Below are positions 7,446-14,663 of a stretch of 38,880 nucleotides of DNA, piece by piece; positions within the stretch are counted from its first letter, which is position 1, and every line of letters begins with the position of its first letter. The notes under the pieces were generated by a model, which made no database searches, was not told the DNA's origin, and was given only the letters and a program-made list of their open reading frames with translations. The stretch is taken from positions 1 through 38,880 of the forward strand of contig JAUVIR010000001.1 of NCBI GenBank assembly GCA_030592645.1, in the 5' to 3' direction. Made by a program: the position numbers and the translations under genes. This stretch comes from Candidatus Fermentibacterota bacterium (GTDB taxonomy: Bacteria; Fermentibacterota; Fermentibacteria; Fermentibacterales; JCC-6).

Positions 7446-9116
7446 TTGTCAAAGAAATTCATCATAGGTGTAGAACTACTGACGGGACTTGTAATCGGAG
7501 CTGCCGCTGCAGCTGTTGCAGTTTCCTTCATAATCGTATTTCTTGTGGACAGGGACCAGGCAGCGCAATCCGGTTACATGGCTACAGCAACAGCTTATGC
7601 GATAAGCAATTCCATAAATGTTTCCAATACTCTGGACAGTTTTGAAAGCATCACTGAACCGATAATCCAGACAGGAGGCATAGAAGCCGCAGTAATACTT
7701 GATTCTTCCGGTGAGATGATAGCAGGTGTCGGGATATCCTCCCCAGAAGAGATGCCTGTTCCGGCACAGACAAGTAACTGGTATTTCGTACAGCAGCCCC
7801 GAACTGACTTCCTAATCGGGGTCAAACCCGGCAAGTCCTCGATTTCCACGATATACAGGACACTCATAATAGGGCTTGCAGCACTTACCGCTGCCATGGC
7901 AGTACTGGCATTTTTTACACCCCGATACCTTACCCGGACCCTGATTCACCCTTTGAGGGGGATACTGTTTGAAGCTGATCGTTTCAGCAGCGGGAGCGGA
8001 GCCGATCCGGAAGCTGCCGGTGCCTCTTTCCACCGACTTGTGGAGCTTCTTCACGAAAGGGAGCAGCAGCTGAACGAACTGAGAGAAAAGGCTGAACAGA
8101 GGGCGGACAGAGTGGAAGAAAGATCAGGCGCGATTCTATCGGTACTGGGGTCGGCAGTATTAGCAATTGATGGAAACGGTAACCTTTCACTCTTCAACAA
8201 GCAGTCTGAAGAACTGTTTGATCTCAGTGATGATGATATCATGAAGGAATTTCCGTGGGAGAGAACCACTGTTGCGCTTAAGCTTAAACCCCTTCTTCTT
8301 TCAATGAGCAGGAAGGGGAACACATCTTCCGAGTTTCAGGTCAGGGATAAAAATGCGAGAACTGATAGAATGTACAGTATCGAAATATCCCGATCAAGAG
8401 ATGATGATATAGCTCTGCTTGTCACTGATGTAACCAGAATAAGTGAACTGGAAAAGAAGATTGCCGATGAGACAGCTATGGCGGACATCGGGGCAGCGTC
8501 TGCCGGGATATCCCACGAAATGGGAAACACACTATGTGCTTTGTCCGGGTTTGTAGATCTTCTTGCCAGAGGACATTCGGATGAAAGAACTCTGAATATT
8601 CTATCCGAGGTGAAAAGGGAAGTCGATTCAGCGCAGGAGAGGATAAGTTCCCTCGGACACTTTGCCAGATCCCCCGAACCGGTTTCCGCAAATCTGAGCA
8701 GGGATGATATTTACTCCGTCTGCAGGGAAGCCTGCAGACTGGACAGTGATAGATGCTCCGTTAACATCTCGCTGAATGAAATCTCAATTAAAGCGGACAG
8801 AAGACTCCTGAGATCCTGCATCTGCAATATCGTTAAGAATGCTATCGAAGCTGATCAATCCTCAGAAATAGAGATATCAATTAAGAGGAACGATGATGAC
8901 CTCATTATTTCAGTTGCGGATACTGGACCGGGTCTTTCACTCGACAGTGAGGAGATCTTCAGGCCTTTTCGAACAACTAAGAACAGAAGCAGCGGAAATA
9001 TGGGACTCGGTCTTTCCGTCAGCAGGAGAATAATAAAGTCAATGGGCGGAGAACTCCTGGGTGAGAACAGAGAAGAAGGAGGAGCCCTCTTCACTATTCT
9101 GTTCCCGATTCAGTGA
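7446..9116 (+). CDS. Membrane sensor histidine kinase (HAMP-PAS-HisKA-HATPase)
   Basis: 556 residues from a TTG with AAAGGAG ending 5 bases upstream. Order: transmembrane helix (about 8-34), periplasmic sensor of about 100 residues, second helix (about 139-161), HAMP-like and coiled-coil region, PAS domain starting near 'ILSVLGSAVLAIDGNGN', then the phosphoacceptor helix with 'GISHEMGNTL' (His357) and an ATPase domain with N box 'NIVKNAIEA', G1 'DTGPGLS' and G2 'NMGLGLSVSRRI'. The H box reads HEMGN instead of the usual HE(I/L)xNPL. It is followed at once by an NtrC-type regulator, its likely phosphorylation partner. The signal is unknown; placement after glycan genes suggests envelope control, which is inference. 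Confidence 0.92.
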   Translation: MSKKFIIGVELLTGLVIGAAAAAVAVSFIIVFLVDRDQAAQSGYMATATAYAISNSINVSNTLDSFESITEPIIQTGGIEAAVILDSSGEMIAGVGISSPEEMPVPAQTSNWYFVQQPRTDFLIGVKPGKSSISTIYRTLIIGLAALTAAMAVLAFFTPRYLTRTLIHPLRGILFEADRFSSGSGADPEAAGASFHRLVELLHEREQQLNELREKAEQRADRVEERSGAILSVLGSAVLAIDGNGNLSLFNKQSEELFDLSDDDIMKEFPWERTTVALKLKPLLLSMSRKGNTSSEFQVRDKNARTDRMYSIEISRSRDDDIALLVTDVTRISELEKKIADETAMADIGAASAGISHEMGNTLCALSGFVDLLARGHSDERTLNILSEVKREVDSAQERISSLGHFARSPEPVSANLSRDDIYSVCREACRLDSDRCSVNISLNEISIKADRRLLRSCICNIVKNAIEADQSSEIEISIKRNDDDLIISVADTGPGLSLDSEEIFRPFRTTKNRSSGNMGLGLSVSRRIIKSMGGELLGENREEGGALFTILFPIQ

Positions 9117-9121
9117 ATATC

Positions 9122-9130
9122 AGGAGGTGA
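9122..9130 (+). promoter_or_regulatory. Shine-Dalgarno site deciding the start of the response regulator
   Basis: AGGAGGTGA is a near-perfect anti-16S match. The only in-frame standard start near it, GTG 9127, lies inside this sequence and so cannot use it. The in-frame codon at ideal distance is ATC 9136, 5 bases after the motif. An out-of-frame ATG at 9131 would make only an 8-codon peptide ending at 9157. Confidence 0.6.
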
Positions 9131-10407
9131 ATGATATCGAAAGGATTCTGCTTATAGAAGACAAACGCGCAATGCGTAACATGCTCACAACTGCCCTTGA
9201 TGAAGATGGATGGGATGTAACCGCTGTATCTTCGGGAACCGAAGCGCTGAAGATGATCAAGAGCTGCTCTTTTGACATTCTGCTGAGTGACATATGCCTT
9301 CCAGGAAGCATCGACGGGATGGATATCCTCAGAAATTCAAGAGAATTCAATCATGGAACACCGGTGATTCTCATGACAGCATTCGGTACAGTTAACCTTG
9401 CCGTTGAAGCGATGAAGGAGGGCGCAAGGGATTTTATCACAAAACCCTTCGATCTCGACGACTTGCTGTCATTACTCAGAAGGTATGTGCATTCAAAAGG
9501 AACCGAAATAATAGGTTCTTCTCAAGCCCTTCTTTCGACACTCATAAGAGCATCGAAGGGTGCTCAGACAGATCTGAATATTCTTGTGCTGGGTGAGAGC
9601 GGTACGGGCAAAGAGCTTCTCGCAAGAATGATTCACAGGGAAAGCGCATGTTCGGATGGACCTTTCGTACCTGTCAACTGTGCTGCCATACCTGCTGATC
9701 TTATGGAGAGTGAACTCTTCGGGGCTGAAAAAGGTGCTTATACAGGAGCAGATCGAACACGGCCGGGCAGGTTCGAACATGCCCAGGGCGGAACGATCTT
9801 TCTCGATGAGGTTGGGGATCTCGGCACTTCATTACAGGGCAAACTTCTAAGAGTACTTCAGGAAAGGGAATACACCAGAGTGGGCGGATCAGAGATCTTC
9901 CACACAAATGCCAGAGTCATTTCAGCGAGCAACAGAGAACTCAAGGAGGAAACAGAAGCGGGCAGATTCAGAAAGGACCTTTACTTCAGAATCGGAGAGT
10001 TCCCTGTAACACTTGCGCCGCTTCGGGAGCGGGCTGAGGATATACCTGATCTTGCTAAACACTTCCTCAGACAGTCCGGGCACCGCGATGTTATCGTTAC
10101 AGATGACGCGATGATCAAACTCAGGGGATACCAATGGCCCGGTAATGTCAGACAGCTGAGAAGTATCGTTCTGAGGGCTGCAGCTCTCGCGGATAATAGT
10201 ATCATCGACGCAGGGATACTCGAGATAGATGATACGGTCTCCGCTGAAGGACTTCTGGAGGAATCTGCAAGGGCAGCGAAGCTTCGCGAAGAAGAAATGA
10301 TTACAAGAGTACTGAAGGAGACCTGCGGAAACAGGAAGAAAGCTGCCGAAATACTCAAAGTCAGCTACAGAACTCTGCTTTCGAGACTTAAGGAATTAGG
10401 TCTTTAG
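9127..10407 (+). CDS. NtrC-family sigma-54-dependent response regulator
   Basis: About 426 residues. The receiver domain shows 'ILLIEDKRAMR', phosphoacceptor Asp in 'LLSDICLPG' (residue 55 from GTG 9127), 'LMTAFG' and 'FITKPFD'. The central AAA+ domain has Walker A 'GESGTGKE', the sigma-54 contact loop 'GAYTGA', and Walker B 'GGTIFLDEVGDL'. The C-terminus is a Fis-type helix-turn-helix ('NRKKAAEILKVSYRTLLSRL'). The gene directly follows the histidine kinase, forming a two-component pair that activates sigma-54 promoters. The start is uncertain: GTG 9127 is a standard codon but lies in the ribosome site, while ATC 9136 fits both the spacing and the usual N-terminus of receiver domains. A large hairpin follows the stop. 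Confidence 0.93.
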   Translation: MNDIERILLIEDKRAMRNMLTTALDEDGWDVTAVSSGTEALKMIKSCSFDILLSDICLPGSIDGMDILRNSREFNHGTPVILMTAFGTVNLAVEAMKEGARDFITKPFDLDDLLSLLRRYVHSKGTEIIGSSQALLSTLIRASKGAQTDLNILVLGESGTGKELLARMIHRESACSDGPFVPVNCAAIPADLMESELFGAEKGAYTGADRTRPGRFEHAQGGTIFLDEVGDLGTSLQGKLLRVLQEREYTRVGGSEIFHTNARVISASNRELKEETEAGRFRKDLYFRIGEFPVTLAPLRERAEDIPDLAKHFLRQSGHRDVIVTDDAMIKLRGYQWPGNVRQLRSIVLRAAALADNSIIDAGILEIDDTVSAEGLLEESARAAKLREEEMITRVLKETCGNRKKAAEILKVSYRTLLSRLKELGL

Positions 10408-10578: not shown

Positions 10579-12522
10579 GTGATAAAAACAATGGAAGAGA
10601 TGACAGCATCGGATTACAAGGCGATAGGACTTCGCAGCGGACTTGAGATACATCAGCAGCTCGATACGGCTAAAAAGCTCTTCTGCCGTTGTCCGGTGCT
10701 TCCCTATTCCGATGTTTACGATGCCAGGATACTCCGTCATATGAGACCAACACTTTCGGAGCTTGGTGAATACGACGGGACAGCTCTTATGGAGTTTAAA
10801 ACCAGGAAAAACATTACCTACCAGATAAATACTGATACGATATGTACTTACGAAATGGATGATAATCCTCCTTTTGAACTTAATCCGAAGGCTCTTGATA
10901 TCGCTCTTGAGATAACAATGCTCCTGAACTGTAAACTTGTAAGCGAGATCCATATTTTAAGGAAGCAATATCTTGATGGTTCGATACCTGCGGGTTTTCA
11001 GAGGACAACTCTTCTGGGAGTTGACGGCTGGATTCCGTTCGGGGACAGGCGGATCACCATTATCCAGCTTGGACTTGAGGAGGACGCATGCCGGGAAGTA
11101 AGCGACAACGGGCATGAACGGGTCTATCTTACCGACAGGCTTGGAATACCGCTTATAGAGACTGTAACAGCCCCGGATATGACCACTCCTGCAGAAGTGG
11201 CTCAGGTTGCCGTTATACTGAGTAATCTTGCACGCGCTTCGGGAAAGGTCAGAAGAGGGATAGGTGCTGCAAGGCAGGATGTGAACGTATCTGTAGCCGG
11301 CGGATGCAGGGTTGAGATAAAAGGTGTTTCTCGGATTCCCACAATACCTCTCCTTGTTCATAACGAAGCCTTCAGACAGGTATCTCTGCTTGAGATCAAG
11401 AGTGAATTGTCCGATCGTGGAATAACCGCTTCCACTTTCAGCTCGGAGTCTTTCGATGTTACCACCGAACTATCAGGAACTTCCTACAGGTATGCAGCTG
11501 AAGCTCTGAAGAAGGGGTTTGAATTACGGGCAGTTGTTTTCAGGGGATACCGCGGGTTATTTTCAAAGATCACACAGCCCGGTCATACCTTTGCTCGCGA
11601 GATATCCGATAGAGTACGTGTGGTCGCATGTCTGGACAGCCTTCCTAATATCGTTCACGACGGGGAGGAAGGTCACAGTTTCTCTCCCAATGAATGGGAG
11701 ATATTGAGAAAAGTTACAGGCGCAGGGCAGGAAGATGCCGTTATTGTAGTCTGGGGATCGGCTGATGATATTGAAACGGCGGCAAGTGAAATAACCATTC
11801 GCGCAAAAGAAGCTATCGATGGAGTACCCAGTGAGACAAGGCAGGCGCTTCCCGATTTAACGAATGGATTCGAGCGAATTCTTCCCGGGCCGAACAGAAT
11901 GTATCCGGATACAGACCTGCCCCCTATAGCCATAGCGGAAGACAGGATCGAGCGCATTGCATCTGTTCTTCCCGAGCGTCCGTGGGAACGTGAAAAAAGG
12001 TATGCTGAGGAAGGTGTACCTGAGGAGTCCGCCCGCCAGATGAGTATTTCAGACATTAGATATCTCTACGATACTGCTGTGGAACGAACTGTCTACTCTT
12101 CACGTGTTCTTATGCACTTCTTCCTGAGCACTCTGCCGCATCTGAAGATAAGCGGAAGGGTTCGGGGATTGACGGAAGATAACCTGATAGATGTCCTTGT
12201 GGAAGCAGGAATTCACAAACTATCCATTGAAGCAGCTGCTTTCATTCTTGAGGGAGTTTGCGATCATGAACATTCAGAAATTGATGAAGTTATCACGAAC
12301 CTGAAAATTCCCGGGATAGAAGAACTGGAAAAGGTATCCCAACATATAATTGAAGCTGCAGGTGATTTAGATACACTCCTTCTTGAGCAATATGTTACCG
12401 GCCGGGTAAGGGAGAGATTCAATTTAATACCGGGCGGCAAAGATGTATTGGAACTTGTTCGAAACGTAATCCGTTCCAGAGATGCCATCTCATCATCCTT
12501 GCAGAAAACGAAAGGGAGGTGA
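10579..12522 (+). CDS. gatE: Glu-tRNA(Gln) amidotransferase subunit E (archaeal type)
   Basis: 647 residues, close to the usual GatE length. 'GLEIHQQLDT' followed by 'KKLFCRCP' is the family signature near the N-terminus; 'RHMRPTLSELGEYDG', 'RKQYLDGS' and 'GFQRT' follow in the expected order. 'LPGPNRMYPDTDLPPI' marks the end of the GAD-type insertion domain, and the last 150 residues form the helical tRNA-contacting tail. GatE phosphorylates Glu-tRNA(Gln) and transfers ammonia delivered by GatD. The GatDE pair is known as the archaeal system, whereas bacteria normally use GatCAB. GTG 10579 has AAGGAG 12 bases upstream, a long spacing; ATG 10591 is an alternative. The stop TGA is part of the gatD ribosome site. 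Confidence 0.95.
   Translation: MIKTMEEMTASDYKAIGLRSGLEIHQQLDTAKKLFCRCPVLPYSDVYDARILRHMRPTLSELGEYDGTALMEFKTRKNITYQINTDTICTYEMDDNPPFELNPKALDIALEITMLLNCKLVSEIHILRKQYLDGSIPAGFQRTTLLGVDGWIPFGDRRITIIQLGLEEDACREVSDNGHERVYLTDRLGIPLIETVTAPDMTTPAEVAQVAVILSNLARASGKVRRGIGAARQDVNVSVAGGCRVEIKGVSRIPTIPLLVHNEAFRQVSLLEIKSELSDRGITASTFSSESFDVTTELSGTSYRYAAEALKKGFELRAVVFRGYRGLFSKITQPGHTFAREISDRVRVVACLDSLPNIVHDGEEGHSFSPNEWEILRKVTGAGQEDAVIVVWGSADDIETAASEITIRAKEAIDGVPSETRQALPDLTNGFERILPGPNRMYPDTDLPPIAIAEDRIERIASVLPERPWEREKRYAEEGVPEESARQMSISDIRYLYDTAVERTVYSSRVLMHFFLSTLPHLKISGRVRGLTEDNLIDVLVEAGIHKLSIEAAAFILEGVCDHEHSEIDEVITNLKIPGIEELEKVSQHIIEAAGDLDTLLLEQYVTGRVRERFNLIPGGKDVLELVRNVIRSRDAISSSLQKTKGR
12514..12522 (+). promoter_or_regulatory. 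Shine-Dalgarno site for gatD, overlapping the gatE stop
   Basis: GGGAGGTGA contains the gatE stop codon TGA as its last three bases. It lies 6 bases before CTG 12529, an ideal distance, and supports CTG as the gatD initiator. The arrangement implies tight termination-reinitiation coupling of the two subunits. Confidence 0.7.
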
Positions 12523-12528
12523 TCGAAA

Positions 12529-13914
12529 CTGTCTTCAGATCTATACAAAGGCTATCAGGGTAAAAGCCTGGAGTGCCTGAAGAAATTCAGTGTTGGTGTA
12601 TGGTCGGACGTTGATATAAAATCAACAAGAGGAGGCTTCAAAGGGGTCATCCTTCCAAGATCGGAAACAGCAGACGATACACATATAGTATTGAAGATCC
12701 ACAACGGTTACAATGTGGGACTGAGTGTAGATACTATAGAATCGATTACGGAACTCGGAAGGAATGAAGCTCATTATAAGATCCCCGAGAAGGAATTCCC
12801 ATCCGATCCATCAAAACCGAATGTAAAACTTTTCGGAACCGGCGGCACTATAGCATCCAGGCTGGATTACAGGACCGGTGCTGTTATTCCCGCATTTTCC
12901 CCGGGTGAGCTCTACGGCTCCGTACCTGAACTCGCAGATATATGCAATCTTAAAACAGAGAAGCTTTATGGAGTATTCAGTGAGAATATGGGACCCGAGC
13001 AGTGGAAGGGTACGGCAGAAGCGATAGGCAGAGAAATAGCTGACGGTGTTGACGGTATAGTCATTGGTCATGGGACGGATACCATGCATCACACCGCTGC
13101 TGTTCTTTCTTTCATGATTCAGGATTCTCCTGTTCCTATCGTAATGGTCGGTTCCCAGAGATCAAGTGACAGACCTTCCAGCGATGCTGCGATTAACCTT
13201 ATGAATGCCACCTATGCTGCTGCGCACAGCGATATAGCAGAAGTGATGGTCTGTATGTTCGGACCGACAAGTGACCAGTACGGTCTTCTGCACAGGGGTA
13301 CGAGGGTCAGAAAAATGCACTCCTCCTACAGGTCAACATTCAGAACTATCGGGGATATACCCCTGGCAATGGTTGAAAATGGAAAGATCACACATCTGAA
13401 GAAGGATTACAAAAAAAGAGATAAAGAACGCAAGGTGATCATTAACACTGCATTCGATCCAAGGGTATCAATTGTTTACTACTATCCGGATATGAAACCC
13501 GACATAATCGAATCGCTCATAGATAACGGCTACCTGGGTATAATTATTGCGGGTACAGGACTTGGACATGTCAACAAACCGCTTTACCCTGTACTTAAGA
13601 AAGCATGTGAGCAGGGTATACATATATACATGACAGTTCAGACGTTGTGGGGATATGTACAGATGTTCGTTTACGATACTGGCAGGGACATCATGGATCT
13701 TGGTGTATTTCCAGCATCTAACATGCTTCCTGAGGTGGCATACGTAAAACTGTGCTGGGCGCTTGGACAAAGTCATGATCGTGATGAGGTTTCGAGGATC
13801 ATGCTGAATCCTGTAGCCGGTGAGATAACTGAACGGGAACCGCACAACGGTTATCTTATACTCCAGGGCGGCATTCCGGAGGTTGAAGAGTTCATAAGCA
13901 AGTACAAAAAATAG
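12529..13914 (+). CDS. gatD: Glu-tRNA(Gln) amidotransferase subunit D (archaeal type)
   Basis: 461 residues if CTG 12529 is the start. The residues between CTG 12529 and the first standard start (TTG 12691) read as the GatD N-terminal Tudor-like domain ('YKGYQGKSLECLKKFSVGVW', 'GFKGVILPR', 'HIVLKIHNGYNVGL'), so the TTG would delete a conserved domain. The asparaginase-like domain has 'GTGGTIASRLDY' (Thr107 region), 'GHGTDTMHHTAA' (Thr and Asp) and 'TRVRKMHSSY' (catalytic Lys). GatD hydrolyses glutamine and channels ammonia to GatE. The frame is the same as that of gatE, separated only by its TGA and two codons. AnsA-type asparaginase is ruled out by the N-terminal domain and the adjacent gatE. 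Confidence 0.95.
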   Translation: MSSDLYKGYQGKSLECLKKFSVGVWSDVDIKSTRGGFKGVILPRSETADDTHIVLKIHNGYNVGLSVDTIESITELGRNEAHYKIPEKEFPSDPSKPNVKLFGTGGTIASRLDYRTGAVIPAFSPGELYGSVPELADICNLKTEKLYGVFSENMGPEQWKGTAEAIGREIADGVDGIVIGHGTDTMHHTAAVLSFMIQDSPVPIVMVGSQRSSDRPSSDAAINLMNATYAAAHSDIAEVMVCMFGPTSDQYGLLHRGTRVRKMHSSYRSTFRTIGDIPLAMVENGKITHLKKDYKKRDKERKVIINTAFDPRVSIVYYYPDMKPDIIESLIDNGYLGIIIAGTGLGHVNKPLYPVLKKACEQGIHIYMTVQTLWGYVQMFVYDTGRDIMDLGVFPASNMLPEVAYVKLCWALGQSHDRDEVSRIMLNPVAGEITEREPHNGYLILQGGIPEVEEFISKYKK

Positions 13915-14120: not shown

Positions 14121-14663
14121 ATGAACATTGAGATCAGTGGCAGGCACTTTGATCTGACAGATGCTCTTAAGGAGCATGTTGAGCATAAACTGAAAACCAT
14201 AGATAGATTCTATGATGGCATAAGTGATATACATGTAATACTGGAAGTAACTTCCGGCACCAATCATGTGCATTTGCAGGTAAGAGGAAATCATATAAAG
14301 CTGGATTCAAAATCGGAAGCCCACGATATCTATGCGGCTTTCGATGATGCATTTAATTCCCTGGAGAGCCAGGTAAGAAAATTCAAGGATAAGATGCATA
14401 ACCATTCTCACAGGAATGATTCGAACGGGACTTCTCTCACATACTACGTTGCCGCCGAGGAATCGGAGTTTGATAACGGTATTCTTATCGATGATTTGAA
14501 ACAGATACCAAGGTTGAAAACCGAGGACGCGATAATGAATTACGAAATTGAGCAGGAAGGGGATTATGTGTTTCAGAACACTGAAACCGGGAAGCTCAGT
14601 ATCGTATATCTGACCTCCAGCGGTAAAACACAAGTTGTGGAACTTGTAAGAGAACAGAAATAA
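14121..14663 (+). CDS. hpf: Ribosome hibernation promoting factor, long form
   Basis: 180 residues, the length of long HPF. The N-terminal domain ('MNIEISGRHFDLTDALKEHV' to about residue 95) is the S30AE/YfiA fold that sits in the 30S decoding region. A short linker follows, then the C-terminal dimerisation domain with 'RLKTEDAIMNYEIEQEGDYV' and 'NTETGKLSIVYL', matching the long-form pattern that pairs two ribosomes as 100S particles. GGGAG lies 6 bases before the ATG. It is the first gene after the predicted promoter and leader hairpin, and is followed by hprK after 14 bases, resembling the hpf/hprK grouping known in proteobacteria, but without ptsN here. Confidence 0.93.
   Translation: MNIEISGRHFDLTDALKEHVEHKLKTIDRFYDGISDIHVILEVTSGTNHVHLQVRGNHIKLDSKSEAHDIYAAFDDAFNSLESQVRKFKDKMHNHSHRNDSNGTSLTYYVAAEESEFDNGILIDDLKQIPRLKTEDAIMNYEIEQEGDYVFQNTETGKLSIVYLTSSGKTQVVELVREQK

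Follow-up and report, generated by a model that had tools for sequence, protein, structure and literature searches.

The window analysed here is a stretch of 38,880 nt from a Candidatus Fermentibacterota bacterium (contig JAUVIR010000001.1 of assembly GCA_030592645.1). It carries adjacent genes for the two subunits of a GatDE-type tRNA amidotransferase, which are listed here with the features that flank them.

9061..10407, forward strand: gene for an NtrC-family sigma-54 response regulator, the upstream neighbour; a related gene is found upstream of gatE in L121
10420..10483, strand not assigned: 27-bp near-perfect inverted repeat with a loop of 10 nt, in the intergenic space that separates the NtrC-like gene from gatE
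10579..12522, forward strand: gatE, Glu-tRNA(Gln) amidotransferase kinase/transamidase subunit, 647 aa, full length including the C-terminal tail; the start is GTG 10579 or one of the in-frame codons ATG 10591 and ATG 10600, its exact position being uncertain
12514..12524 (ends within a base or two), forward strand: extended Shine-Dalgarno element GGGAGGTGATC, kept in congeners
12529..13914, forward strand: gatD, asparaginase-like ammonia-producing subunit, 461 aa, with a conserved CTG start
14121..14663, forward strand: hpf, ribosome hibernation factor, the downstream neighbour; syntenic in L121 and L122
14678..15676, forward strand: hprK, HPr kinase/phosphatase; also near gatE in L122 and in the g4/g5 relatives

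The TTG codon at 12691, listed as the start of gatD, is internal, and translation from it removes about 50 N-terminal residues. The reading frame is free of stops back to the gatE stop codon, and CTG 12529-12531 is preceded by the Shine-Dalgarno sequence GGAGGTGATC, the extended element overlapping the stop codon of gatE. The same position is occupied by CTG in several congeners and by TTG or GTG in two others, and the protein translated from CTG 12529 includes the GatD N-terminal domain. The two genes apparently form a single operon. Long open frames that had raised the suspicion of a GatD-GatE fusion among the loci compared would most simply be overlapping stop-free frames. The inverted repeat upstream of gatE folds into a very stable hairpin (folding energy z-score -10.9), which is terminator-like or mobile-repeat-like; its core sequence is absent from the locus DNA of every relative compared.

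An intact GatDE pair in a bacterial genome

Both proteins score above the cut-offs of the archaeal family models: GatE with 518 bits against NF003107 (cut-off 456) and 464 bits against TIGR00134 (cut-off 320), GatD with 487 bits against TIGR02153 (cut-off 324). Their nearest relatives in the PDB, as found by sequence search for GatE, are the archaeal enzymes from Pyrococcus abyssi and Methanothermobacter thermautotrophicus (1zq1_A and 2d6f_A for GatD). The AlphaFold model of GatE (pLDDT 87.5) matches 1zq1_C with an E-value of 2e-48, and also 2d6f. The GatB_N catalytic domain is present. The GAD insertion domain (PF02938) has no match in the genome, and the region nevertheless aligns throughout in both sequence and model. 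The C-terminal tail comprises 79 residues past position 562, with helices at 574-640 in the model. The pair resembles archaeal GatDE in its two subunits, domain order and catalytic-region residues, with 36-38% identity to archaeal GatE in the structural alignment. GatD shares its catalytic fold with type I L-asparaginases but differs from these by its extra N-terminal domain and its GatD-family score; asparaginase-like genes separate from gatD exist in the same genome.

Across 24 GatE sequences, none of the 16 active-region residues checked varies, and dN/dS for gatE within the genus is about 0.1 (0.07-0.12). GatE is thus under purifying selection, and the combination with the invariant residues suggests that it has been kept working. 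We infer that the pair is catalytically active.

The host genome is Fermentibacterota/Aegiribacteria-like, with Candidatus Fermentibacteria and Candidatus Aegiribacteria as close relatives; its assembly is 92.9% complete and lacks a 16S rRNA gene. Further bacterial genes surround gatDE (ptsH, ptsI, topA and a gene for a ClpX/HslU-type AAA ATPase), and congeners have hpf with hprK, or else the NtrC-like gene, next to the pair. Within the order, GatE is encoded in 35 of 42 genomes and GatD exceeds the cut-off in 33 of the 42. Bacterial neighbours, synteny in congeners and the occurrence of GatE across the order rule out contamination or a chimeric assembly, a concern raised in the preliminary description, and bear out its claim of an intact, full-length pair in a genuine bacterial genome.

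A bacterial GatDE clade

In a sample of 343 bacteria from outside the order, 32 genomes, spread over 25 families, encode a true GatE, and a named scan returned more than 570 GatE-encoding places. The best 80 of these include Krumholzibacteriota, Ignavibacteria, Bacteroidales, Cloacimonadota, Neomarinimicrobiota, Aminicenantes, Phycisphaerae, Myxococcota, Gemmatimonadota, Zixibacteria, KSB1, WOR-3, Acidobacteriota, Calditrichota, Caldisericota and Coatesbacteria; one host among them, Perlabentimonas gracilis, is an isolate. At least 59 of these best 80 loci contain gatD within the locus DNA.

In the GatE tree, 61 sequences (bacterial ones and one from an archaeal-labelled MAG) are separated by a 100/100 branch from the archaeal side, which is very thinly sampled with two references. 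The GatE from the window clusters with those of its own genus and a sequence from Krumholzibacteriota. A single clade for all GatE sequences of the phylum is rejected (AU test, p = 5e-82), which implies repeated transfer of the gene. With its two archaeal references, the tree fits both acquisition of the gene from archaea and its inheritance by bacteria. From this tree, the pair belongs to a bacterial GatDE clade and is not an isolated archaeal import. The bacterial proteins also differ from the two archaeal references in the loop adjoining an invariant Lys, which reads YLDGSIP[TA]GFQRT in bacteria and DGSN..GFQRT in archaeal GatE; DGSIP[TA]GFQRT was found in 78 of the best 80 loci from the named scan.

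Two sequences lie on the other side of this division: a bacterial MAG (G047, locus L007) has an archaeal-type GatE that falls with the archaeal references, and a Thermoplasmatota MAG (L197) has a bacterial-type GatE. Each may reflect transfer or misbinning.

Reviews published in 2021 and 2022 restrict GatDE to the archaea (PMC8007984, PMC9499178). The preliminary description had considered that the pair might fall among many already known bacterial GatDE. It does fall within a large bacterial clade, but that clade is not described in the parts of the literature that were searched: titles and passages since 2009, a selection outside which most subscription papers lie, contain no report of bacterial GatDE. 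The clade appears widespread and overlooked, and automatic annotation may already name such genes.

Supply of Gln-tRNA and the possible role of GatDE

The preliminary description had proposed that, if GlnRS were lacking, this bacterium would make Gln-tRNA by the archaeal pathway. That proposal fails, since a full-length GlnRS of bacterial type is encoded (753 bits against TIGR00440, cut-off 425.8), and GatDE is therefore not the only Gln-tRNA route of the host. GlnRS is the single GlnRS/GluRS-type enzyme found; the assembly, 92.9% complete, lacks a GluRS gene, but most congeners carry both enzymes. Only GatE matches GatB_N (PF02934) in this genome, so that GatB, and hence GatCAB, was not found there; the suggested division of Gln and Asn duties between GatDE and GatCAB does not apply here.

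In each of the two tRNA-Gln genes the acceptor end carries U1-A72 and G73, in agreement with the acceptor identity elements of bacterial GlnRS (PMC9976931). The U1-A72 pair is what known bacterial amidotransferases read (PMC9976931), and among the host tRNAs for Gln, Asn and Asp it occurs only in tRNA-Gln, both tRNA-Asn and tRNA-Asp having G1-C72. This favours Glu-tRNA(Gln) over Asp-tRNA(Asn) as the probable substrate. The host thus differs from those of archaeal GatDE by its GlnRS and its U1-A72 tRNA-Gln; archaeal GatDE reads A1-U72 on its substrate tRNA (PMC9499178), a pair that is absent from both tRNA-Gln genes here.

Coexistence with GlnRS is the rule in the order, GlnRS being present in all 14 genomes tested, 13 of which also carry GatE (the exception is G020). 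Among the 32 GatE-positive genomes from outside the order, GlnRS exceeds the cut-off in 18 and is fragmentary in two. A second, GatB-like match is present in 13, absent in 17 and unclear in two, and 13 of the 17 without it have GlnRS or a fragment thereof. Taken together, 26 of the 30 classifiable genomes own another route to Gln-tRNA, bearing in mind that these counts rest on automatically sampled draft MAGs with match counts as a proxy for GatB. A comparable arrangement is known from Thermus, Deinococcus and Bdellovibrio, where a tRNA amidotransferase, GatCAB, coexists with both GlnRS and AsnRS (PMC4206432); GatDE has different subunits, however, and the tRNA-Asn of the present host lacks the U1-A72 pair which the Asn route of those bacteria needs. 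Within the order, two relatives, G020 (95% complete) and G012 (91% complete), lack both GatE and GatD and retain two GlnRS/GluRS-type genes. The pair is thus dispensable.

Because bacterial GlnRS already charges tRNA(Gln), our favoured reading, to which we give about an even chance, is that GatDE provides a nonessential second route to Gln-tRNA(Gln) or a clean-up of Glu-tRNA(Gln). GatD would hydrolyse glutamine (or asparagine) and release ammonia; GatE would use ATP to phosphorylate the Glu side chain on tRNA(Gln) and then amidate it, yielding Gln-tRNA(Gln). Glu-tRNA(Gln) arising from occasional mischarging would be what GatDE mainly clears or converts, and the pair would be maintained and spread through horizontal transfer. 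This reading, in which activity, substrate and clean-up role are inferred, is supported by the match to family models and structure, the 16 invariant residues, the low dN/dS, the association with GlnRS across the order, the restriction of U1-A72 to tRNA-Gln, the joint absence of both subunits from G020 and G012, and a gene context in which only gatD recurs. Several findings point the other way. The Arg equivalent to R358 of Thermus thermophilus, a residue typical of discriminating enzymes, is found in the GluRS of congeners; this suggests that little Glu-tRNA(Gln) is made. The loop beside the invariant Lys differs from that of archaea, and A1-U72 of the archaeal substrates is absent. In the sister genera g4 and g5 (L023, L025, L035), GatE lacks the tail domain and gatD is unlinked, being located elsewhere in the genome; archaeal GatDE distinguishes tRNA(Gln) from tRNA(Glu) with the help of the GatE tail (PMC4810234).

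The main rival, which we consider rather unlikely for the pair described here, is a repurposed enzyme that amidates something else than Glu-tRNA(Gln) for translation, such as a different carboxylate or an aminoacyl-tRNA with a non-ribosomal use. It would account for the presence of GlnRS and/or a GatB-like gene beside GatDE in the 26 genomes mentioned above, for a loop motif particular to the bacterial clade, for the retention of both unlinked GatE and GatD where the tail has been lost, and for the transfer of the pair from phylum to phylum on several occasions. Yet the GatE of the window retains all domains and all checked residues. Moreover, gatD is the sole gene that recurs often beside gatE in the neighbourhoods of relatives, so that the context gives no pointer to another pathway, and no candidate substrate emerged. 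For the bacterial branch as a whole, across its many phyla, we regard a role outside the provision of Gln-tRNA(Gln) for ribosomal translation as a tentative, minority possibility, to be taken slightly more seriously, given that GatDE is nearly always found on top of GlnRS or GatCAB, with a distinctive active-site loop and, in some members, no tRNA-reading tail.

By analogy with AspRS2 and GatCAB of Thermus and Deinococcus, GatDE might instead amidate Asp-tRNA(Asn) formed by a non-discriminating AspRS of archaeal type. The only AspRS of the host (L004, G000:C67) is indeed of archaeal/eukaryal type and lacks a GAD domain; among solved structures it is closest to the non-discriminating AspRS2 of T. 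thermophilus. A full-length AsnB was not seen in several GatDE-positive genomes (G005, G017, G099). We nevertheless judge this route improbable for the host, where the AspRS specificity residues are ambiguous, AsnRS and one AsnB-like gene are present, and tRNA-Asn has G1-C72, a form that known enzymes do not amidate (PMC9976931, PMC4206432). AsnRS is encoded by two genes, assigned by sequence reading (L005 and L006; G000:C32 and C48). These are similar to each other, one being on a 6.2-kb contig, and represent a duplicate or a strain variant.

That GatDE is a decaying relic of an older indirect pathway, superseded by GlnRS, is very improbable: some genera lack the GatE tail and some genomes lack both genes, but purifying selection is strong, the catalytic-region residues are invariant, and the phylum acquired the gene several times separately. 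Least probable of all is that GatDE serves, as it does in archaea, as the principal or only path to Gln-tRNA(Gln); the intact pair and the failure to find GatB in this genome would fit, but GlnRS rules out a sole route here, and the GlnRS genes across the order, the acceptor identity of tRNA-Gln and the relatives devoid of GatDE speak against a principal one. It could hold elsewhere, in G189 (98% complete; L090, L271), which encodes GatDE and has GluRS next to tRNA-Gln(CUG), with neither a GlnRS nor a GatB match. It is the strongest candidate for a bacterial host truly dependent on GatDE.

Implications for the origin of Gln-tRNA synthesis

Two arguments in the 2022 review presuppose the confinement of GatDE to archaea. 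In one scenario, bacteria stem from a lineage that had only GatCAB; the absence of GlnRS from archaea, for its part, is attributed to co-evolution of GatDE and tRNA-Gln (PMC9499178). Both arguments are undercut by a well-populated clade of GatDE in bacteria that possess GlnRS as well. It also makes the purpose of a second Gln-tRNA enzyme testable, in bacteria which have GatDE beside GlnRS.
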